64,000 nt of DNA from positions 1 through 64,000 of the IMG/VR virus record IMGVR_UViG_3300042914_003776; one strand, written 5' to 3'. The position numbers were made by a program, and so were the translations under genes. The stretch is from a virus. This document shows, in pieces, positions 4,592-50,395 of this stretch. The notes under the pieces are model-generated. The model saw only the letters and a list, made by a program, of their open reading frames with translations. It was not told where the DNA came from and made no database searches. The first letter of the stretch is position 1; each line of letters begins with the position of its first letter.

Positions 4592-4878
4592 GTTCGTTGC
4601 TCCGTTAATGCTACCCGTTGAGCTTGAATAAAATATAGTTTATTTTTAGTTTTTAGATACTTAAAAAATAAATTAAATGCAGATTCGGAAACGGTTTTTA
4701 GCTTACATAAATCTTTATCGCCCCTTTTCAATAGATATGGGCCATATGGATCATGTATCGCTCCCTTCCAGAATATAATAAAGTAATACGTCTTGTTTTG
4801 CAACTCAATTTTTTTAGCGAGGGCACTATTTTCTTCAACTTCTTGTCCCCCAAGACCATAACAAGTTTCACTCTTCAT
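4588..4878 (-). CDS. hypothetical protein (96 aa)
   Basis: Small protein with an aromatic strand (TYYFIIFWKGAIHDPYGPY) typical of a compact beta sheet. ATGA overlap with its downstream neighbour. Not recognised. Confidence 0.6.
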   Translation of the reverse strand: MKSETCYGLGGQEVEENSALAKKIELQNKTYYFIIFWKGAIHDPYGPYLLKRGDKDLCKLKTVSESAFNLFFKYLKTKNKLYFIQAQRVALTEQRT

Positions 4879-5080
4879 ATTTTAAACTCTCCAAAACTTT
4901 CTTGATCTTTTCTATGCAATTTTCTTTATTATATCCAGATATATTAAAAATCGCCTTATCTTTTATTCCAAATTTTTCTAACTCTTCATTTGGTAATCTT
5001 TCCGGAATTAGGCTTCCGTCTTCAGATATAGGAAAAACATGTATGTTAAAAGAAATCTGAGCATGATGCGGGCTATTCAA
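4868..5080 (-). CDS. hypothetical protein (70 aa)
   Basis: Short soluble protein with an ISFNIHVFPI strand and a helical C-terminus. Overlaps the next gene by 11 bp in the same operon. Not recognised. Confidence 0.55.
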   Translation of the reverse strand: MNSPHHAQISFNIHVFPISEDGSLIPERLPNEELEKFGIKDKAIFNISGYNKENCIEKIKKVLESLKYEE

Positions 5081-5081
5081 A

Positions 5082-5435
5082 TCAATCTCCTTCTACTATC
5101 CATTTTTGCTTTTGTTCTGGTGTCATTTTATTAATTTTACGCATTAAGTCTTTTTTATCTTTTGCTTCTTTAGAAATAATTTTATTATCTTTTCTCATTT
5201 TTTCTTCTAGGCCATATTTGCCTAGCTTTTTAGTATTTGCTTCGGCAAGCTGTCCTATAGTTTTAATTTCTTTGACTGTTGCGTGAATGCTATCTAATGA
5301 ATATTCTCTATTAACTTTTTTGCTTTTACATTGATGACATTTAACTTTTTTCATATTATCATCATACTCTTGAACTCGCCAAAACTCTACAGATATAGAG
5401 TTACACTTTTCACATTTAAAATTATACTCAGGCAT
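5082..5435 (-). CDS. FmdB-type zinc-ribbon protein
   Basis: 117 aa. The N-terminus MPEYNFKCEKC plus CHQCKSKK is the FmdB-like zinc ribbon (two CxxC knuckles) common in phages. A charged helical tail ends in MTPEQKQKW. Probably a nucleic-acid or protein interaction module; the exact role is unknown. Its start overlaps the 3' end of phoH by 8 bp. Confidence 0.7.
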   Translation of the reverse strand: MPEYNFKCEKCNSISVEFWRVQEYDDNMKKVKCHQCKSKKVNREYSLDSIHATVKEIKTIGQLAEANTKKLGKYGLEEKMRKDNKIISKEAKDKKDLMRKINKMTPEQKQKWIVEGD

Positions 5436-7119
5436 CTTTTAACCTACTTAAAATTTTTGGAATCAAGCCGTTTCTGACAACATCGGTGCCATCTAATTCA
5501 CAAATGGCTACCTTATCTAAATTATGTAATCTAGAAATAAATTTATCTAATCCGCCCTTAGTGTATTCTGGTAAATCACTTTGGTCAGTATCGCCATTGA
5601 TAATAGCTTTTGAGTTCATGCCAATTCTAGTAATAAACATTTTTATTTGTTCAAAAGTGCAATTTTGGGCTTCGTCAAGAATCATAAAAGCATTATGGAA
5701 GTTTCTACCTCGCATGTATTCTAGTGGACAAATTTCTATTATATTGGTTGCTTTGAGATGCATCAAGGCTTCGCCTAGATATTGTTTCATTTCTTCAAGG
5801 ATAGGAATCATGTACGGATTAATTTTTTCTAACATAGTGCCGGGCAAAAAGCCTAAGCCTTTTCCTGACTCAATTACTGGTCTAGTAATAATAACTTTAG
5901 ATACATCATTTCTCATTAACGCTTCGCAGGCTAATCCAGTAGCAATTGCGGTGTTATGCGTTTGAACAAATCCGTCTGTTAAATATAAATGACTATTAGA
6001 ATCTATTAAAATACACTGACATTCTTTTTCTGATATTTTTTCTATTGAATCTATGTATCTTTTTAGAAAATATTTTTCTCTTACTAATAAATTTTCTCTT
6101 TTTCTGCTTAGCTTAAATGGCACTAAGTTATTATTAAATCTTATAAAAACCCTATAGTTTTCTTTAGTTATTATTTTTTCATTATTTTTTGTGTAATGTC
6201 CCATTCTTGCACTAATTTTTGCAAAACCGCCTAAAGATTGAACGATAGTTTGAACATCTAGTGCTAGCTGGTAAGAAGCCGTAGAAAATTCTATTGTACT
6301 GCTTCCACAATATCCATCTGTATCTAGCAAGCCAGACAATATTTCAGTTCTAACCTGTTTAGAGTTATAAATATATTCTTTTGGTATAAATTTATTATAA
6401 GAAAGCTTATTTAAAATACCAAGTCTTTCTAGTTCTGGTTTTAAAACTAAATATCCTCCTGTAATATTATAGTCACAATTATTTTGTTTGGAGAGAGAAC
6501 AAGATATTTCATTTAGTACAGGCGTAAGTAAATCTATCATTTCTTTATCATTTGTGCTAAACCTAAGCATTTGTTGGCTTAATCCGCCGTCACCAATCAA
6601 GCATCCTAGCAAGTATGGATCGATATTAACTTCCTGATGATCAAAATCAACTGCTTCTATAGCGGGCAGATAGTATTTCCTTTTGCCGGATTTTCTTTTA
6701 TAAGAATTAATAATTTTTTCTAAGGGCAATGTTTTTGGAGCTTTCCAATTTTCACTACATAATGTCCATAAATGCTCTTTACAGCATTCTACAGTTTGTC
6801 CATCTGAAAATGTTATTAAATAAACATCTTTTTTGCCTTGCGGAAAAACATTTAGTACTTTAGCTCTTTTACCATCTTCAGTAAGAACATATGAGCCTAT
6901 TTTTACATCGCCCATCGCTATTGGGCCACTAGGAGTCCATATTGTAGAATCAAGCGGCTGCGCCTTGCCGCTACCGGCCGGGCCAATACATAAAGTAACA
7001 TCGTTTTCTACAACGCTTCTAATATAATCAGCCTGATTTTTAGTTTTTGGAACTAAAGTTTTTCTTTCTTGTCTTGGGGGATCTTTCTTTGGCGTATTAT
7101 CTTGTCTCTTTTTTTTCAT
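5428..7119 (-). CDS. phoH: PhoH-family ATPase interrupted by an intein
   Basis: 563 aa from MKKKRQD at 7119. Exteins total 226 aa, a normal phage PhoH length. PhoH is a P-loop ATPase/RNA-associated protein widespread in marine and freshwater phages. The Walker A GPAGSGK-T is split by the intein (residues 53-389): the Lys precedes and the Thr follows the insertion. After splicing, the Walker B AFMILDEAQN and the NGDTDQSDL motif follow. The intein must be excised for ATPase activity. Confidence 0.93.
   Translation of the reverse strand: MKKKRQDNTPKKDPPRQERKTLVPKTKNQADYIRSVVENDVTLCIGPAGSGKAQPLDSTIWTPSGPIAMGDVKIGSYVLTEDGKRAKVLNVFPQGKKDVYLITFSDGQTVECCKEHLWTLCSENWKAPKTLPLEKIINSYKRKSGKRKYYLPAIEAVDFDHQEVNIDPYLLGCLIGDGGLSQQMLRFSTNDKEMIDLLTPVLNEISCSLSKQNNCDYNITGGYLVLKPELERLGILNKLSYNKFIPKEYIYNSKQVRTEILSGLLDTDGYCGSSTIEFSTASYQLALDVQTIVQSLGGFAKISARMGHYTKNNEKIITKENYRVFIRFNNNLVPFKLSRKRENLLVREKYFLKRYIDSIEKISEKECQCILIDSNSHLYLTDGFVQTHNTAIATGLACEALMRNDVSKVIITRPVIESGKGLGFLPGTMLEKINPYMIPILEEMKQYLGEALMHLKATNIIEICPLEYMRGRNFHNAFMILDEAQNCTFEQIKMFITRIGMNSKAIINGDTDQSDLPEYTKGGLDKFISRLHNLDKVAICELDGTDVVRNGLIPKILSRLKDA
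5953..6963 (-). mobile_element. intein with DOD homing endonuclease in phoH
   Basis: 337-residue intein. N-terminal block A starts with Ala (AQPLDSTIWTPSG), so it should use the Ala1-type direct attack on the first splice junction. Block B has CKEHLWTL. Two LAGLIDADG-like motifs, LLGCLIGDGG and ILSGLLDTDGYCG, each carry the acidic residue. Block F/G is HLYLTDGFVQTHN followed by Thr as the +1 nucleophile. The insertion point is the P-loop, the classic conserved site for intein homing. Confidence 0.93.
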
Positions 7120-7129
7120 AAGATATCCC

Positions 7130-8317
7130 TTAATATGATTCAGATGTTTGCGCGAATAACGCCGGATTAAGAGATGCATTACTTGCCTGTATCTGAGTGT
7201 ATGTTAAAAAATCATTATTATTGTTTTGATAACTAATTTCGTACTCTACTATGCTCCCATCCGCACTACCTCCTGTCTGGTTAAAAGAAATCATTTTGTT
7301 TTTATTGCCCAAGTTCCATATGAAAAACTTAGTTTGTCCGCTGGGCAATGGTATGCCAGCAACTATACAAATTCTTTCATTATGATTCGTAATAAAATCG
7401 CTATTGACTGGATCAATATCTACTTGAGGCAATCTCCGGGCCGAAATAGTAAACGAGCATGTTACGCCAACTGGAAGTGCCAGCGTTTTATGCCAATTAA
7501 CCTTATCGCCCTGCTGAATTTGTCCAGTAGTTAAATAATCCATATATTCTAAAGATAAATCAATCTTTATATTTTTTATTCCAAATATTTCTTGTCCATT
7601 AAAAAAATTATTAAAATCGGTCAAAGCTTTTATAGACTCTGGTAATACGCAAAAATGATTGTATACTGATCCTCTTTTTAAAATGATAGGATCGTTAATT
7701 GGATTGTCTATTGTTAAAGAATCTAAATTAAAGCTATTTGATGCTTGTTTAGTTTTAATTTTATTACTTAAAGATATATTTTCTGTAAAGAATCCAGACA
7801 CATCTAGGTTATATGACAAGTTTGTTAGTAAGCACTTAGGCATACTAATGATATCTTGTGCCGTTCCAGAGTTTCCAGACACTTCGCCCAATAAAGATGT
7901 TTCGTCTGTAGCAACAAGAGTTAAATCATACTCTGGTATATTCTTTGCCTTAACATTATTAGCTTGACCGACATCCCATCCATTGATGGAGGAGCCAAAT
8001 ATTTCTGGCTTTAAGAAAAAAGTATTAGCATAAGTTAAAGAATTTCTGGCTGTATTACATAAAAAATTAGACCCAAGTTCTGCCCAAAATATATCCTTAT
8101 TAGACAAAACTCTTTCGATGGTAATCTCATTATTGGGAGGTAATCTTAAACTATCATATAGCTGTGTCTTTCCGACATTAGAAATATTAGCCATTTCCAT
8201 TCCTGTATCTATTCCTATAGACTGTACCCCGGAAAGGAAATAGTTAGTGATTGAGCTATTTTTGCTTATGCTGTTTAAGAATACGGCTAAAGAGCCATAA
8301 AATATTCTATTTGCCAT
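7130..8317 (-). CDS. putative virion structural protein (395 aa)
   Basis: Beta-rich, Asn/Ser-rich, without signal peptide or catalytic motif. It contains TQLYDSLRLPPNNEITIERVLS and many short strands, which suits a tail or virion beta-sandwich protein. Located between phoH and the RNR with 10-18 bp spacing. Assignment as structural is inference. Confidence 0.5.
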   Translation of the reverse strand: MANRIFYGSLAVFLNSISKNSSITNYFLSGVQSIGIDTGMEMANISNVGKTQLYDSLRLPPNNEITIERVLSNKDIFWAELGSNFLCNTARNSLTYANTFFLKPEIFGSSINGWDVGQANNVKAKNIPEYDLTLVATDETSLLGEVSGNSGTAQDIISMPKCLLTNLSYNLDVSGFFTENISLSNKIKTKQASNSFNLDSLTIDNPINDPIILKRGSVYNHFCVLPESIKALTDFNNFFNGQEIFGIKNIKIDLSLEYMDYLTTGQIQQGDKVNWHKTLALPVGVTCSFTISARRLPQVDIDPVNSDFITNHNERICIVAGIPLPSGQTKFFIWNLGNKNKMISFNQTGGSADGSIVEYEISYQNNNNDFLTYTQIQASNASLNPALFAQTSESY

Positions 8318-8335: not shown

Positions 8336-10543
8336 TTAAAATAGATCGCATTTTCCGCCGCCACAGGCTATTTCTTCCTGAAGTTTTGTATTGTCCTTTT
8401 CCTCTTGTAGGAGAGTATAGTCAACCTCAACATATTCTCTTTGAAGCTCTGTCCACAGCTTATAGTTATACACATCTTTCATGGCATGGGTTAGTTTCTT
8501 GATATCTCCCTCAAAGTATTTGACTGCATATTTATTGCATCTTTTGATCCAGTCTGTTTTTGCCGTACCTCTGCTTCTTGATCCGTTTCCTAGTAATGCT
8601 GAGCATGCTTCCCATAGATTATCTTCCCAGAGTGTTAGTGCTGTTTCGATAAGGCCGCTAACAAATACCACTCCATCGCCGTAATGAGATAGCATCTCGC
8701 TAGGTAGATATATGGTAGTAAAAGGAGCTTGTGGGTAGTCTTTATCGCCGGTCGATGCCAATAGACTAATTCCGCAGAAAAATTCTCTATTTTCATAAAT
8801 AAAATCTTCAACCTGCACCCATTCGCTGGGCTTAATATTGATCGTATTACTCACATTATGATTTAGCCAAGGCTGCGTACATAAATCTTTATTTAATCCA
8901 GACATGACCCAATTCTTTTGTGTTGACTTAACAATTTCTAATAAATTGATAGCACTAGTCTGATTTTTTGTCTTTGATCCATCCGGAACCTCTACACAAA
9001 AACTAATTACATCATCCGTATCATTTGCCGACCAAACCGATCTTTCGCAAGCTCTTGGATTCATTGTACTAAAATATTTATATACATTTTCCATTTTATT
9101 AGCCTGAACTCTTCTGATATATCTTTTGGCATGGTGCGGATGGATGCCGCTAGCAGTACCTAAAACACATGAAGATGAACCTTCTGGTTTAACGCATGTA
9201 GTTCTAGCCGCTGGATTAATATTTATTAGTTTTGATATTTGATTGTTTGTTTCTTTTACTACCTCTGCTCCCTTTTGCTGTACTGTGGGGTCTAGGCAAA
9301 CTTCAGGGTTTTCTAGCCATCCAGTGCCACTAACGCCTAATAGGGCCTCTCTAGCAAAGATTCTCTCTGATACTTCGCCCAAATAAGGAAAGCTTGTGAA
9401 ACCAGCTTGTAAAGTTCCGATTATTGCAGCAGCCTTACATGCCTCATAAAAGTCTTCTTCGGTTTTTACTTTGGCACAATTAATGGTTGATAAATTACAA
9501 CCCTGCCAGCCAGAAATTCCAGTTTTTTCATCCACTGGCCACATGCCAATTTCCACACAGGGATTCACAATTAATTCAGTCGAATCAGACCATACAAAGC
9601 CCGGTTCTCCAAATTCTTTTACGGATTTCATCAATTCTGCAAACTGTTCTTTTGTTGTAGAATCCCGCAATAGCAATGCTGAATTATTGGATCGGCCTCT
9701 TTGCGGATTATCCGTAAACCAATTACCTGTTTTTGCTTTAGCCATTTCTGCGTCATCGGGCGAAAAAACACAAATCGTAGCGGACCTTCTCACGCCACCC
9801 GAGATAACAGCATCAGAAGCATGCATGATAATATCATATGCCTCAATAGGCTTTATTTTTCTTAAATCATCTGAACAAAATTCTGTCCGGCTAATTGAAT
9901 TGTCTAGAATTTTTTTAATATTTTTTAGAGCCTTTTTTAGTGGCTCTGGGCCGGGCGCTTTGCCGACCCCGCCAGCTACGGGCGATCCAGCGGGTCTAAT
10001 TTGCGTGTAATCAAAAGTTACATTATATCCCACATACTCTGCAAAAAGCTCGTCCTGATCAAAATACGAGGCAACTAAGACGCCTACCGCATCTGACCAT
10101 CCTTCGATACTATCCTCGATAACAAATTTCTTATTCTTCTCTGGCGCAACTGAAATAAGGGCCGGAAGTTTATCTATGTGATGTTTCTGTACTGAGAACC
10201 CAGTACCACAACCACACAGCAATAAATACATACATTCTTGAAAGAATCTTAATCGGTCTACATATGAGCTAACACAATTATAAATCCGGGCATGCTTGTT
10301 TAAAATAGGCTCTCCGCCAAATTGGAGCGCTCTTTGGCTTCCTAATACCTTCTTCTTATACATCATATCATACGCCCAGTCTATTTGGTCGTGTAGTTCT
10401 TGAGATGCATTGCTGTACTTCGTATGCATCATGCTTCTGACACGATCATTTGCCTCTTTCCATGTTTCTCTTCTTTTCTTTTCTGGCAAATACCTTGCAT
10501 ATTTTGAAGTAAAGGTATAGTCCTGTAGCGATTTCAAACTCAT
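8336..10543 (-). CDS. nrdJ: adenosylcobalamin-dependent (class II) ribonucleoside-triphosphate reductase
   Basis: 735 aa, matching monomeric class II enzymes of the Lactobacillus leichmannii type (about 739 aa). It reduces NTPs to dNTPs using a B12 radical and needs no oxygen. Visible elements: NPCVEIGMW in the active-site barrel, GCNLSTINC, and the C-terminal redox pair CGGGKCDLF that shuttles electrons. RBS AGGAGC precedes the ATG. It supplies dNTPs together with dut, thyX and dCMP deaminase, and depends on host cobalamin. Confidence 0.93.
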   Translation of the reverse strand: MSLKSLQDYTFTSKYARYLPEKKRRETWKEANDRVRSMMHTKYSNASQELHDQIDWAYDMMYKKKVLGSQRALQFGGEPILNKHARIYNCVSSYVDRLRFFQECMYLLLCGCGTGFSVQKHHIDKLPALISVAPEKNKKFVIEDSIEGWSDAVGVLVASYFDQDELFAEYVGYNVTFDYTQIRPAGSPVAGGVGKAPGPEPLKKALKNIKKILDNSISRTEFCSDDLRKIKPIEAYDIIMHASDAVISGGVRRSATICVFSPDDAEMAKAKTGNWFTDNPQRGRSNNSALLLRDSTTKEQFAELMKSVKEFGEPGFVWSDSTELIVNPCVEIGMWPVDEKTGISGWQGCNLSTINCAKVKTEEDFYEACKAAAIIGTLQAGFTSFPYLGEVSERIFAREALLGVSGTGWLENPEVCLDPTVQQKGAEVVKETNNQISKLININPAARTTCVKPEGSSSCVLGTASGIHPHHAKRYIRRVQANKMENVYKYFSTMNPRACERSVWSANDTDDVISFCVEVPDGSKTKNQTSAINLLEIVKSTQKNWVMSGLNKDLCTQPWLNHNVSNTINIKPSEWVQVEDFIYENREFFCGISLLASTGDKDYPQAPFTTIYLPSEMLSHYGDGVVFVSGLIETALTLWEDNLWEACSALLGNGSRSRGTAKTDWIKRCNKYAVKYFEGDIKKLTHAMKDVYNYKLWTELQREYVEVDYTLLQEEKDNTKLQEEIACGGGKCDLF

Positions 10544-44538: not shown

Positions 44539-44717
44539 TTTTTGCTTACAACCTGACTCCTAATTCGATCTATGGCTTGTATCCAGACTTGGCTCCAGAC
44601 TTGGTCCCCGACTTGGCTCCAGATTTGGCTCCTGACTTGGATCAAGATTTGGTCCCCGACTTGGCTCCTGACTTGGTTCAAGATTTGGTTCCTGACTTGA
44701 TTTTTGACAATTTTCAT
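44535..44717 (-). CDS. QV tetrapeptide-repeat protein (60 aa)
   Basis: [20 protein letters not shown]..., about 13 four-residue units, ends [12 protein letters not shown]-coupled on both sides. Confidence 0.65.
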
Positions 44718-44920
44718 TTTTCGTCCCAGACTTGCTCGCAGATTTGGTTCCTGACTTGGTTCCAGACTTGGTTCACGACTTGGTATCCGACTTGGCTCCC
44801 GACTTGGTTCCCGACTTGGTCCCAGACTTGGCTCCAGACTTGGTCCCCGACTTGGCTCCAGATTTGGCTCCTGACTTGGATCAAGACTTGGTCCATGATT
44901 TGATTCTTAGTTGTTTTCAT
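44714..44920 (-). CDS. QV tetrapeptide-repeat protein (68 aa)
   Basis: [20 protein letters not shown] and onward, ends CEQVWDEK. The DEK ending and following ATGA recur in most array members. Confidence 0.65.
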
Positions 44921-45075
44921 TTCTTGCTCACGATTTGGCTCCCGACTTGGCTCCAGACTTGGCTCCTGACTTGGTTCAAGATTTGGTCCCCGACTTGGCT
45001 CCAGACTTGGCTCCAGACTTGGTATCCGACTTGGCTCACGACTTGGGCCCTGACTTGATTTTTGACAATTTTCAT
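44917..45075 (-). CDS. QV tetrapeptide-repeat protein (52 aa)
   Basis: [20 protein letters not shown]..., ends GSQIVSKK. Shares its SKK ending with the 44535 gene, so these two are close duplicates. Confidence 0.6.
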
Positions 45076-45302
45076 TTTTCGTCCCAGACTTGCTCCCAGA
45101 TTTGGTTCCTGACTTGGTTCCAGACTTGGTTCACGACTTGGTATCCGACTTGGCTCACGACTTGGGCCCTGATTTGATTCCAGACTTGGTTACTGATTTG
45201 GTTCCTGACTTGGCTCACGACTTGGCTCACGACTTGGTTACTGACTTGGTTCCAGACTTGATTCATAGCTCGATGCCTGACTTGACTGCTGACAGCTTTC
45301 AT
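45072..45302 (-). CDS. QV tetrapeptide-repeat protein (76 aa)
   Basis: [20 protein letters not shown]..., ends WEQVWDEK; the longest repeat protein here. The RHRAM segment also occurs in the 45478 gene, marking a duplication. Confidence 0.65.
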
Positions 45303-45481
45303 TTTTCGTCCCAGACTTGGCTCCTGACTTGGAACCTGACTTGGCTCCTGACTTGGTCCCAGACTTGGCTCCTGACTTGGTCCCAGACTTGGTTCCCGAC
45401 TTGGTTCCAGACTTGGTTCCCGACTTGGTTCCTGACTTTGCTCAAGGCTTGGCTCCAGACTTGGTAAATAAGTGATTTCAT
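45299..45481 (-). CDS. QV tetrapeptide-repeat protein (60 aa)
   Basis: [20 protein letters not shown]..., ends RSQVWDEK. The first 16 residues are identical to those of the gene at 49232-49438, showing block copying between arrays 4 kb apart. Confidence 0.65.
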
Positions 45482-45648
45482 TTTTCGTGCCTGACTTGCT
45501 TCCAGACTTGGTTCCCGACTTGGTTACTGACTTGGTTCAAGAATTGGTTCCCGACTTGGATCATGACTTGGTATCCGACTTGGCTCACGACTTGGGCCCT
45601 GACTTGATTCATAGCTCGATGCCTGACTTGACTGCTGACAGCTTTCAT
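45478..45648 (-). CDS. QV tetrapeptide-repeat protein (56 aa)
   Basis: [20 protein letters not shown]..., ends KQVRHEK. The RHEK ending matches the 24-aa gene at 49435. Confidence 0.6.
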
Positions 45649-45851
45649 TTTTCGTCCCAGACTTGGCTCCTGACTTGGAACCTGACTTGGCTCCTGACTT
45701 GGTCCCAGACTTGGCTCCTGACTTGGTTCCCGACTTGGTTCCAGACTTGGTTCCTGAGTTGGTTCAAGAATTGGTTCCCGACTTGGATCATGACTTGGTA
45801 TCCGACTTGGCTCACGACTTGGGCCCTGACTTGATTGTTGACAGCTTTCAT
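45645..45851 (-). CDS. QV tetrapeptide-repeat protein (68 aa)
   Basis: [20 protein letters not shown]..., ends [12 protein letters not shown]-coupled on both sides. Confidence 0.65.
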
Positions 45852-46054
45852 TTTTCGTCCCAGACTTGGCTCCTGACTTGGAACCTGACTTGGCTCCTGA
45901 CTTGGTCCCAGACTTGGCTCCTGACTTGGAACCTGACTTGGCTCCTGACTTGGTCCCAGACTTGGCTCCTGACTTGGTCCCAGACTTGGTTCCAGACTTG
46001 GTTCCCGACTTGGTTCCAGACTTGGTTCCTGACTTGATTGTTGACAGCTTTCAT
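45848..46054 (-). CDS. QV tetrapeptide-repeat protein (68 aa)
   Basis: [20 protein letters not shown]..., start at 46054 chosen by the ATGA junction (an in-frame extension upstream reads the repeat in another frame). Ends [11 protein letters not shown]. Confidence 0.65.
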
Positions 46055-46233
46055 TTTTCGTCCTTGACTTGCTCCCAGATTTGGTTCCTGACTTGGTTCC
46101 AGACTTGGTTCACGACTTGGTATCCGACTTGGCTCACGACTTGGGCCCTGATTTGATTCCAGACTTGATTCCATAGCTGATCCAAGACTTGACTCTCGAC
46201 TTGGTTCCTGACTTGGTTATTAACTGGTTTCAT
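46051..46233 (-). CDS. QV tetrapeptide-repeat protein (60 aa)
   Basis: [20 protein letters not shown]..., ends EQVKDEK. Some units have drifted (DQLW, NQIR). Confidence 0.65.
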
Positions 46234-48018: not shown

Positions 48019-48055
48019 TATTTACCTCTTTAATAAAGCTAATTTTCGTCAAAAT

Positions 48056-48155
48056 GGAAAAGGCTGGATTCGAACCAACATCAGGCCCCGACTTAGGGGC
48101 GAGCCTACCTTTGTCTCTTATTCTGTATATACAGCGTCTTTATCATCACTTTTCC
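48056..48155 (-). ncRNA. tRNA-like RNA with insertion before the D-arm
   Basis: Perfect T-arm GTTGG-TTCGAAT-CCAGC and acceptor GGAAAAG / CTTTTCC. A GCCCC/GGGGC stem with a TAAGTC loop takes the anticodon-arm place. About 29 extra bases, including palindrome CTGTATATACAG, separate the acceptor from a D-arm-like GAG...CTC. No confident anticodon. Confidence 0.45.
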
Positions 48156-48243
48156 AGTGCAACCAACTGGATTCGAACCAGTATTCAAGTGCGTCCTGCT
48201 TTTGCTCCGCTCTTGCTATTACCAATTATAGGATAGTTGCATC
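48156..48243 (-). ncRNA. tRNA-like RNA with enlarged anticodon arm
   Basis: Acceptor TGCAACT / GGTTGCA, D-stem CTAT/ATAG with AATTGGTA loop, T-arm ACTGG-TTCGAAT-CCAGT all look normal. The anticodon arm is CAAG, then 22 nt with no T, then CTTG, so no 7-nt loop or U33 exists. Possible insertion or hybrid tRNA. Confidence 0.45.
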
Positions 48244-48245
48244 AA

Positions 48246-48371
48246 TGGGTCGGGCAGGAATTGCACCTGCTTGCGCTTCGGTCAGTCCGTTGGAGTCGAA
48301 CCAACGCCATTTGGTCTTGCCTTGCGGGAGCCCTAACTGACTCTGCGTGTCACTGTCCACGCCGCCGATCC
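48246..48371 (-). ncRNA. nested tRNA-like element
   Basis: An outer pair GGATCGG / CCGACCC with T-arm GCAGG-TGCAATT-CCTGC encloses an inner element. The inner element has GTCAGT / ACTGAC and a perfect T-arm GTTGG-TTCGACT-CCAAC. Neither has a standard anticodon arm. It looks like one tRNA fragment inserted in another. Confidence 0.4.
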
Positions 48372-48377
48372 TTATAT

Positions 48378-48405
48378 ATTATATACTATTGATCTTTATT
48401 TTCAA
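48378..48405 (-). promoter_or_regulatory. promoter of the aberrant tRNA cluster
   Basis: TTGAAA, 16-bp spacer, TATAAT reading minus, just upstream of the 48.1-48.4 kb tRNA-like group. Confidence 0.6.
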
Positions 48406-48918: not shown

Positions 48919-49080
48919 TTATATATAAAGAAAATGTATGCGGTCTGTAATTTCATAGCGAATAAAATTAGGAATCCGTAAATACCAGTCTATATAAGTA
49001 TATGTAAATATGTGCGTTTTGTCAAATATTTTTTCGTTTATTAAATCATAAGTTTTTTGAATTTTTTTTAAAGGCTTCAT
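48919..49080 (-). CDS. array family small protein, possibly frameshifted (53 aa)
   Basis: [20 protein letters not shown]..., ends DRIHFLYI. In the -1 frame just past IHF, reading continues as SLYIKWIDDLLFEIRWVIKK to the next gene's ATG. That extension resembles YVVWLDDILFTLRKMIKEQ in the open frame at 51001-51245, so the intact gene was probably longer. Confidence 0.45.
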   Translation of the reverse strand: MKPLKKIQKTYDLINEKIFDKTHIFTYTYIDWYLRIPNFIRYEITDRIHFLYI

Positions 49081-49235
49081 TTTTCTGCTCCGTGTTCATC
49101 CCAGACTTGTCTCACGACTTGGTTACTGACTTGGTTCCAGACTTGGCTTTCGACTTGGCTCCCGACTTGGCTCCTGACTTGGTTCCTGACTTGGCTCCAG
49201 ACTTGCTCCCCGACTTGATTGTTGACAGCTTTCAT
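49077..49235 (-). CDS. QV tetrapeptide-repeat protein (52 aa)
   Basis: [20 protein letters not shown]..., ends [12 protein letters not shown]-coupled to both neighbours. Confidence 0.6.
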
Positions 49236-49438
49236 TTTTCGTTCCAGAATTGGTTCCCGACTTGGATCATGACTTGGTTCAAGACTTGGTTCCTGACTTG
49301 GCTCCAGACTTGGCTCCTGACTTGGTTACTGACTTGGTCCCCGACTTGGTTACTGACTTGGTTCCCGACTTGGTTCCTGACTTGGTTCCTGACTTTGCTC
49401 AAGGCTTGGCTCCAGACTTGGTAAATAAGTGATTTCAT
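49232..49438 (-). CDS. QV tetrapeptide-repeat protein (68 aa)
   Basis: [20 protein letters not shown]..., ends GNQFWNEK. N-terminus identical to the 45299 gene; C-terminus like those of the 50277 gene. Confidence 0.6.
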
Positions 49439-49509
49439 TTTTCGTGCCTGACCTGCTTCCAGACTTGGCTCCAGACTTGGTTCCTGACTTGATTGTTGAC
49501 AGCTTTCAT
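49435..49509 (-). CDS. short QV repeat peptide (24 aa)
   Basis: [20 protein letters not shown] then RHEK and stop. The shortest member of the family; ATGA at both ends. Confidence 0.45.
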   Translation of the reverse strand: MKAVNNQVRNQVWSQVWKQVRHEK

Positions 49510-49625
49510 TTATCACTCCAGAATTGGTTCCCGACTTGGATCATGACTTGGTTCCTGACTTGGCTCCAGACTTGATTACTGACTTTCCAGACTTGGTTAC
49601 TGACTTGACTGCTAAGAGCTTTCAT
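49506..49625 (-). CDS. QV tetrapeptide-repeat protein (39 aa)
   Basis: MKALSSQVSNQVWKVSNQVW..., ends GNQFWSDK. One unit is shortened by a codon (WKVSNQV), an in-frame deletion. Confidence 0.5.
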   Translation of the reverse strand: MKALSSQVSNQVWKVSNQVWSQVRNQVMIQVGNQFWSDK

Positions 49626-49810
49626 TTTTTATTCTTATATTGGTGCAAGACTTGGATATATGCTTCCGTCCAGACTTGGTGCCGAAGTGTGTAGGTTTGA
49701 TTTATATGATTGTACATTTTGCTCCAGATTCGGACACTTATTCGTTCACCAATTTTGTAATTAGTTAATTTTATAATTTTGTACTGTAGTTCAGTTATAA
49801 CATTTTTCAT
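49622..49810 (-). CDS. array family protein, partly degenerate repeat (62 aa)
   Basis: MKNVITELQYKIIKLTNYKI... keeps V/L/I at every fourth position at first. The C-terminus retains HQVWTEAYIQVLHQYKNKK, a decayed QV segment. Links the repeat and non-repeat members. Confidence 0.55.
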   Translation of the reverse strand: MKNVITELQYKIIKLTNYKIGERISVRIWSKMYNHINQTYTLRHQVWTEAYIQVLHQYKNKK

Positions 49811-49959
49811 TTATTATCCCCATAATATTCTTCTATAAAACCCAAGTTTTCTTCTATAAAACGCAAAATAATATATCCCGGCATATCGTGTGATACATGC
49901 CAACGGGTTTCCCAATAGCTTTTTAGTATTAATTGACGGATTTCTTTAGCTATTTTCAT
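49807..49959 (-). CDS. array family small protein (50 aa)
   Basis: [20 protein letters not shown]..., ends IEEYYGDNK. ATGA overlap with the following gene. Confidence 0.5.
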   Translation of the reverse strand: MKIAKEIRQLILKSYWETRWHVSHDMPGYIILRFIEENLGFIEEYYGDNK

Positions 49960-50077
49960 TGTTTAAAATAAGCCTTATTTTACTTATTGGATGACAAATT
50001 TTACGAATTTTTTGAAATATAACAAGATTAATTGACGGGACATATAATTGTATAAGTTTATTTTTTAGAGGTTTCAT
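49946..50077 (-). CDS. array family small protein (43 aa)
   Basis: [20 protein letters not shown]..., basic. Overlaps the next gene by 14 bp and the QV gene upstream by ATGA. Confidence 0.45.
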
Positions 50078-50280
50078 TTTTCGTTCCTGCTTTGTTCCCA
50101 AGCTTGGCTCCAGACTTGGCTCCTGACTTGGCTCCCGACTTGGATCATGACTTGGTTCAAGACTTGGTTCCTGACTTGGCTCCAGACTTGGCTCCTGACT
50201 TGGTCCCCGACTTGGTTACTGACTTGGCTCCCGACTTGGCTCCAGACTTGCTCCCCGACTTGATTGTTGACAGCTTTCAT
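50074..50280 (-). CDS. QV tetrapeptide-repeat protein (68 aa)
   Basis: [20 protein letters not shown]..., ends EQSRNEK. ATGA-coupled. Confidence 0.6.
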
Positions 50281-50395
50281 TTTTCGTTCCAGAATTGGTT
50301 CCCGACTTGGATCATGACTTGGCTCCCGACTTGGTTCCAGACTTGGTCCACTTGGTTCATGACTTGGTTCACGATTTGACTCTTAACTGATTTCA
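50090..50395. repeat. third 12-bp repeat array
   Basis: About 23 units of GACTTGGNNCCN encoding two QV genes on minus. Confidence 0.9.

Follow-up and report, generated by a model that had tools for sequence, protein, structure and literature searches.

Phage tRNA genes are usually taken as codon suppliers. Besides the canonical tRNA (RF00005), the RNAs closest to those considered here are the tRNA-like domain of tmRNA and the RNA of mycobacteriophage DS6A, a phage tmRNA-like RNA without a reading frame that is reported to inhibit host tmRNA (PMC11915505); tRNA-Sec and the allo-tRNAs, which are unusual in shape (PMC7609411); and the GOLLD and ROOL RNAs (PMC12286853), structured phage RNAs of no known function found near tRNA islands.

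The three genes analysed here, t3, t2 and t1, are consecutive on the minus strand at 48371-48055 of the window, that is, of the whole 64,000-nucleotide stretch of DNA that was analysed, itself part of a 117,750-base IMG/VR phage record. A sequence-only reading had described them as tRNA-like RNAs with abnormal anticodon arms, and all three were found as such. Their features are as follows.

48378-48405, minus strand: promoter, TTGAAA (48405-48400), 16-nt spacer, TATAAT (48383-48378); 11 of 12 consensus bases
48246-48371, minus strand: t3, tRNA-like RNA of a family with a hypervariable core; 24 distinct members with covarying acceptor, D-like arm and T-arm
48345-48362, minus strand: D-like arm of t3, GCGTG-GACAGTGA-CACGC; from family conservation
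48281-48340, minus strand: nested tRNA-like stretch in t3, TCAGTT...GGACTGA, with no D-arm; motif beyond chance
48247-48270, minus strand: T-arm of t3, GCAGG-TGCAATT-CCTGC (48270-48254), and 3' acceptor strand (48253-48247); from the family alignment
48158-48240, minus strand: t2, tRNA-like RNA with normal D-arm and T-arm; 38.3 bits with the Rfam tRNA model (cut-off 29)
48055-48155, minus strand: t1, conserved tRNA-like RNA; seven distinct members, compensatory change in 17 of 25 pairs, covariance model
48118-48148, minus strand: inserted domain of t1, TGATGATAAAGACG, hairpin CTG-TATATA-CAG (48134-48123), AATAA; from comparison of members
48101-48117, minus strand: D-arm of t1, GAGAC-AAAGGTA-GGCTC; 4 of 5 stem pairs covary
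48085-48100, minus strand: anticodon-position arm of t1, GCCCC-TAAGTC-GGGGC, with a 6-nt loop; from comparison of seven members

With canonical tRNAs these RNAs share an acceptor stem, a T-arm, a D-arm with GG (t1 and t2) and a place in arrays with true tRNAs; they differ in that none of the three has a standard anticodon loop, t1 and t3 fall below the Rfam cut-off, the D-arm of t1 is preceded by 29-42 additional nt and t3 has a hypervariable core. The tRNA-like domain of tmRNA and the DS6A RNA, the latter likened by its description, also offer a phage-encoded tRNA-like body without a decoding anticodon, and t1 often lies beside tmRNA; t1, however, lacks a tag frame and the G3-U70 pair, and it has a true D-arm and, where an anticodon arm would be, a stem-loop. 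The likeness to tRNA-Sec and the allo-tRNAs lies in unusual shape, the inner part of t3 scoring weakly with the Rfam tRNA-Sec model (17.5 bits, cut-off 47), but here the acceptor branch is 7/5 and not 8/5, the D-stem has 5 and not 6 bp, and neither UCA nor any other anticodon is present. GOLLD and ROOL resemble the present RNAs as structured phage RNAs near tRNA islands, but are hundreds of nucleotides long with other structures, and no Rfam match was seen at the t1 and t3 loci.

The locus and its probable transcription unit

The intergenic gaps are 5 nt (t3-t2) and 2 nt (t2-t1), so the three RNAs are very probably on one transcript. The common promoter that had been proposed for them was recovered as a prediction from sequence: TTGAAA-16-TATAAT ends 7 nt ahead of t3 and is the one promoter before all three genes, and the transcription start predicted from it should lie at about the first base of t3. 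Sites with at least 11 of the 12 consensus bases number 38 on the minus strand and 4 on the other across the 64 kb, which suggests that this promoter is probably real. Perfect promoters (TTGACA-16/17/18-TATAAT) number 13 on the minus strand, which is the coding strand, and 0 on the other.

The minus strand also carries a large, nearly full tRNA set that includes ordinary Leu tRNAs. ARAGORN called none of t1, t2 and t3, and CCA is not encoded in any of them. Their single-sequence folding energies were unremarkable (z from -0.2 to -2.0), so the case made below rests on comparison and not on energy. Sequence error, whose correction would have restored normal tRNAs, is disfavoured and assembly error was rejected as the source of the odd forms, because 4.4 kb around t1-t3 is 100% identical in a second contig (IMGVR_UViG_3300042879_003909), although both assemblies may stem from related samples.

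The window encodes RIIA, PhoH and UvsX, DUF1501 and DUF1559 proteins and, by a name given from sequence, a ribonucleotide reductase (8336-10543). DUF1559 (PF07596), which we take to be a planctomycete hallmark, was matched in none of 14 control genomes and is present in two more contigs carrying t1; a planctomycete host is likely on these gene contents.

Perfect T-arms and good acceptors had been read in all the RNAs. This holds throughout for t2, and the nested T-arm of t3 is perfect as well; t1 pairs 7/7 in the acceptor but has one G-U among the 5 pairs of its T-arm, and t3 has 6/7 acceptor pairs (A3 against C70) and a T-loop, TGCAATT, with G at position 55, as in most members of its family.

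Structure and conservation of the t1 family

In t1 the acceptor and the D-arm are 31 nt apart, against the usual 2, which bears out the 29-nt insertion before the D-arm noticed earlier. The 29-nt insert is the most conserved part of the RNA: a near-invariant GATGATAAAGACG, a 3-bp hairpin in which 3/3 pairs covary, and an invariant AATAA, the flanks varying among members only in the first base and in one G inserted in two of them. The D-loop has AA, then 1-2 variable nt, then GG, a spacing that varies as is usual for D-loops. As AA and GG are kept, the body of t1 is probably L-shaped with a D-loop/T-loop contact, and the alternative of a class II tRNA whose D-arm has been displaced is disfavoured, since this loop is of D-loop type. 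The stem in anticodon position is paired in 35/35 cells, with 3/5 pairs covarying, and closes a hexaloop, T[A/G]AGTC (RNA U[A/G]AGUC), found in 7/7 members. GAC in the insert could pair with GUC in this loop; since both triplets are invariant, covariation neither supports nor denies the contact.

The seven distinct members come from 10 phage contigs (G000/G001, G003, G016/G017, G018, G019, G065 and L272/L273) and were found by pattern scans and a covariance model; the relative in G003 has an identical GATGATAAAGACG after its acceptor. The model scores the phage members at 78-120 bits, but was built on five of them, so that the independent recovery is that of G065 (78.5 bits). In the alignment 170/175 cells are paired and 17/25 pairs changed on both sides, against a shuffle mean of 8 and with none of 2000 shuffles reaching 17, in segments that were letter-checked against their loci but picked with the structure known, and with shuffles that ignore relatedness. 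Slid controls on the five-sequence alignment scored far below the true one. The tRNA parts thus vary with compensation while the insert flanks and hexaloop are almost constant; the flanks, AATAA and hexaloop are kept although UvsX identity to the window's copy falls through 68, 53 and 45 to 38% in related t1 phages. No constant neighbour gene was found among the t1 loci.

In 294 Planctomycetota genomes the t1 model found only ordinary Leu/Ser tRNAs (36 bits or less), and neither t1 nor t3 matched Rfam 15, so both families look phage-specific. In cultured phages the matches were limited to T-arms of ordinary tRNAs and a single fragment lacking annotation. Neither family was described in the open-access literature searched, subscription papers and preprints being outside that scope. 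Nearly all matches of the first t1 pattern were dropped for want of a T-arm downstream of the motif, and L271, which matches the pattern without acceptor and T-arm, was set aside as chance.

The t3 family, its nested T-arm and t2

Scans for the two conserved ends of t3, followed by a strict search for complete members, gave at least 24 distinct complete members, mostly in unrelated phages. In most of their contigs UvsX similarity to the window phage is absent or weak, and genes for RecT, an exonuclease or a lambda-type portal lie nearby in several. The acceptor strands change in step (GGATCGG/CCGATCC, AATTCGG/CCGAATT, CCCTCGG/CCGAGGG, TGATTGG/CCAATCA). An alignment of 17 sequences with the core omitted has 8/17 pairs changed on both sides and 99% of cells paired; in the D-like stem 2/5 pairs vary with pairing kept and 100% of cells are paired. 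Between the D-like arm and the T-arm lies the core, whose length is highly variable; no fold or loop common to the members was found in it. The t3 genes of G003 and L218 have an identical core but different acceptors with pairing kept, suggesting transfer between phages. Two or more tandem copies occur in some contigs. The earlier call for a comparison with the same locus in relatives is thus answered by conserved, covarying families for both t1 and t3, whose structure and conservation, judged on aligned sequences, are very well supported.

Two candidates were discarded. L253, a Planctomycetaceae MAG and the sole bacterial match of the t3 pattern, has it inside a long reading frame with the structure absent, a chance match; in L248 the 5' pattern matches, but T-arm and acceptor were not found, and this too is probably chance. 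Hairpins recur just upstream of t3 (L222, L232, L241, L229, L243, L249), for example GGCAACTGCCTAAGTTGCC and GACAGCCGGAGAGACGGC, and may belong to the same precursor RNA.

The second T-arm that had been seen enclosed in one of the RNAs is GTTGG-TTCGACT-CCAAC, at 48305-48289 inside t3. Such a perfect motif is expected by chance 0.005 times per 64-kb strand, with 0 on the opposite strand, so it is not accidental. It is, however, private to the window phage: it is absent from other members of the family, and the G003 relative has the outer parts of t3 but not this arm. The surrounding 60 nt compete with a t3 hairpin at 48343-48328. A plausible origin is fusion to an adjacent tRNA.

In t2 the anticodon-arm site is taken by a 30-nt hairpin, CAAG-A-GCG...CGC-A-CTTG (48215-48186), with a 14-nt loop that is not of U33 type, just as had been read; the acceptor has 7/7 pairs and the fold z is -1.97. 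No relatives of t2 were found in the loci examined, which is where the hairpin was sought. It may be a hybrid, and it is grouped with t1 and t3 on position alone.

Decoding, mimicry and trans-translation

A 7-nt loop with U33 on a 5-bp stem, as in canonical elongators, is absent from t1, t2 and t3, while a 7-bp acceptor with a 5-bp T-arm and TTCRANY loop is present in t1 and t2. A conserved tRNA-like fold without a decoding anticodon, as expected of a tRNA mimic, is seen in t1 and t3. From these comparisons we judge, with a probability of roughly 0.55, that t1 and t3 are tRNA mimics rather than amino-acid adaptors. Transcription from the 48405 promoter would give one unit of three tRNA-shaped RNAs, a precursor that host tRNA enzymes would cut and trim (RNase P, RNase Z or exonucleases, CCA addition). 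The tRNA body that proteins recognise (acceptor stem, T-arm, a D-arm) is kept in t1 and t3, and the decoding part is replaced, in t1 by the conserved insert and fixed 6-nt loop and in t3 by the hypervariable core. Such mimics might occupy or regulate tRNA-handling machinery, for example trans-translation factors, tRNA-cutting defence nucleases or tRNA-processing enzymes. A more specific picture is tentative: phages may have built two new classes of non-decoding RNA on the scaffold of a tRNA body. In t1 the fixed 13-nt strand would form a conserved active site together with the URAGUC loop, possibly through the GAC-GUC contact, and the RNA would act on or beside trans-translation; t3 would be a hypervariable cassette that unrelated phages exchange as part of an arms race against defences that target tRNA.

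That these are oddly shaped translating tRNAs, with t1 reading the Leu codons CUU/CUC through an [A/G]AG anticodon, in a loop either shortened or of 8 nt, and t2 and t3 decoding through altered arms, seems unlikely. The loop of t1 is U followed by RAG, and its sole variable base is either A or G, as is possible at a wobble position, which counts against mimicry; the phage has a nearly full tRNA set, and oddly shaped tRNAs are able to decode (review, PMC7609411). The loop of only six bases, however, sits on an invariant C-G closing pair, and the base after the presumptive anticodon is U rather than a purine. Members differ at base 73 (A or T) and in the first acceptor pair (G-C, G-U or A-U), so synthetase identity is not preserved, which together with the lack of a standard anticodon makes decoding unlikely. 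The variable loop is short, unlike that of the class II Leu tRNAs of bacteria; the phage already has ordinary Leu tRNAs, and t3 members have no common loop. Equally improbable is that the genes are functionless hybrids or decaying tRNA genes from T-arm exchange in a crowded array. The second perfect T-arm of t3, seen in no relative, the absence of relatives found for t2 and the odd arms of other tRNAs in these arrays speak for it, but the covariation of t1 and t3 and the near-invariant single-stranded parts of t1 largely refute it for those two. Of the two origins offered by the sequence-only reading, tRNA-derived regulatory RNAs therefore fit t1 and t3, with their conserved, covarying relatives, better than recombination hybrids do, a regulatory role being presumed; a hybrid origin is possible for t2 and the nested T-arm.

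The neighbourhood of t1 brings in trans-translation. A tmRNA gene is found no more than 80 nt from four of the seven t1 genes: in G003, G018 and G019 it is permuted and follows t1 at 18-20 nt, and in G016 it is of the standard form and precedes t1 by 76 nt. G000 and G065 have tmRNA too. An accessory RNA partnering the phage's own tmRNA would explain this but is unlikely: in G000 and G065 the tmRNA is not adjacent (the window's candidate is 17 kb from t1), none was found in the 11-14 kb around t1 of L272/L273, many relatives carry tmRNA without t1, and the adjacency may reflect shared RNA processing only. That t1 is itself a miniature tmRNA, its insert encoding a short tag (DDKDA...) ended by UAA, is very improbable. 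The window (DDKDAVYTE) and G019 (DDKDAVSTE) do have an in-frame stop after the would-be tag, but frame comparison largely refutes this reading, as the tag frame is not conserved, being lost in G003, G018 and G065, and the hairpin length shifts by non-multiples of 3. The G3-U70 pair that marks tmRNA is absent from 7/7 t1 and from the window's t3 (a few t3 members, such as L218, have it), so t1 is no copy of the tmRNA acceptor domain. Given the precedent of PMC11915505, competition with trans-translation is a reasonable first hypothesis for t1, though t1 lacks G3-U70. If t1 and t3 are mimics that keep the tRNA body and drop the anticodon, some phages maintain tRNA mimics overlooked by tRNA finders and Rfam, and the two would be small, concrete objects for asking whether RNA decoys counter tRNA-based defences or trans-translation.

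The tmRNA candidate of the window (31660-31327; 46.9 bits, cut-off 47) has a plausible tag ending ETFALAA and stands directly before tRNA-Arg. Circularly permuted tmRNA genes (RF04321) occur at L085 18575-18286, L217 8364-8151 and G065:C1:11372-11567, relatives having the standard form. A further one in L188 (G018), at about 5395-4640, was identified by eye because an HNH-like reading frame (4690-5253) lies between its two pieces.

Other unusual tRNA-like genes were seen. About 200 nt of the window (~59391-59190) behind a perfect consensus promoter (59425) end in a minihelix of acceptor and T-arm (TTGCTAG, 11 nt, T-arm, CTAGCAA) and may be a further tRNA-like RNA. A 182-nt tRNA match (60106-59925, 36.6 bits) has a long stem-forming insertion after the anticodon region, and a tRNA-Lys(UUU)-like element at 39484-39412, with a 7-bp acceptor and a T-loop of GGCAGTG instead of TTCRANY, was missed by ARAGORN and Rfam. 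Two related phages have tRNA genes of 122-123 nt (L085 17092-16971, L087 1724-1846) with a common insertion of ~50 nt in the anticodon region, and tRNA-like genes of 136-139 nt (L099 3467-3602, L188 6097-5959) have related insertions of ~60 nt, the L188 gene containing a promoter-like TTGACA...TATAGT. Short degenerate repeats patterned on GACTTGGNTCC form long arrays at about 44570-46170 and 49080-50380 of the window. The PhoH-like protein (5428-7179) has an inserted domain, likely an intein, that matches inteins or endonuclease parts annotated in terminase and helicase families, and UvsX of G016 and G019 is also split by an in-frame insert.
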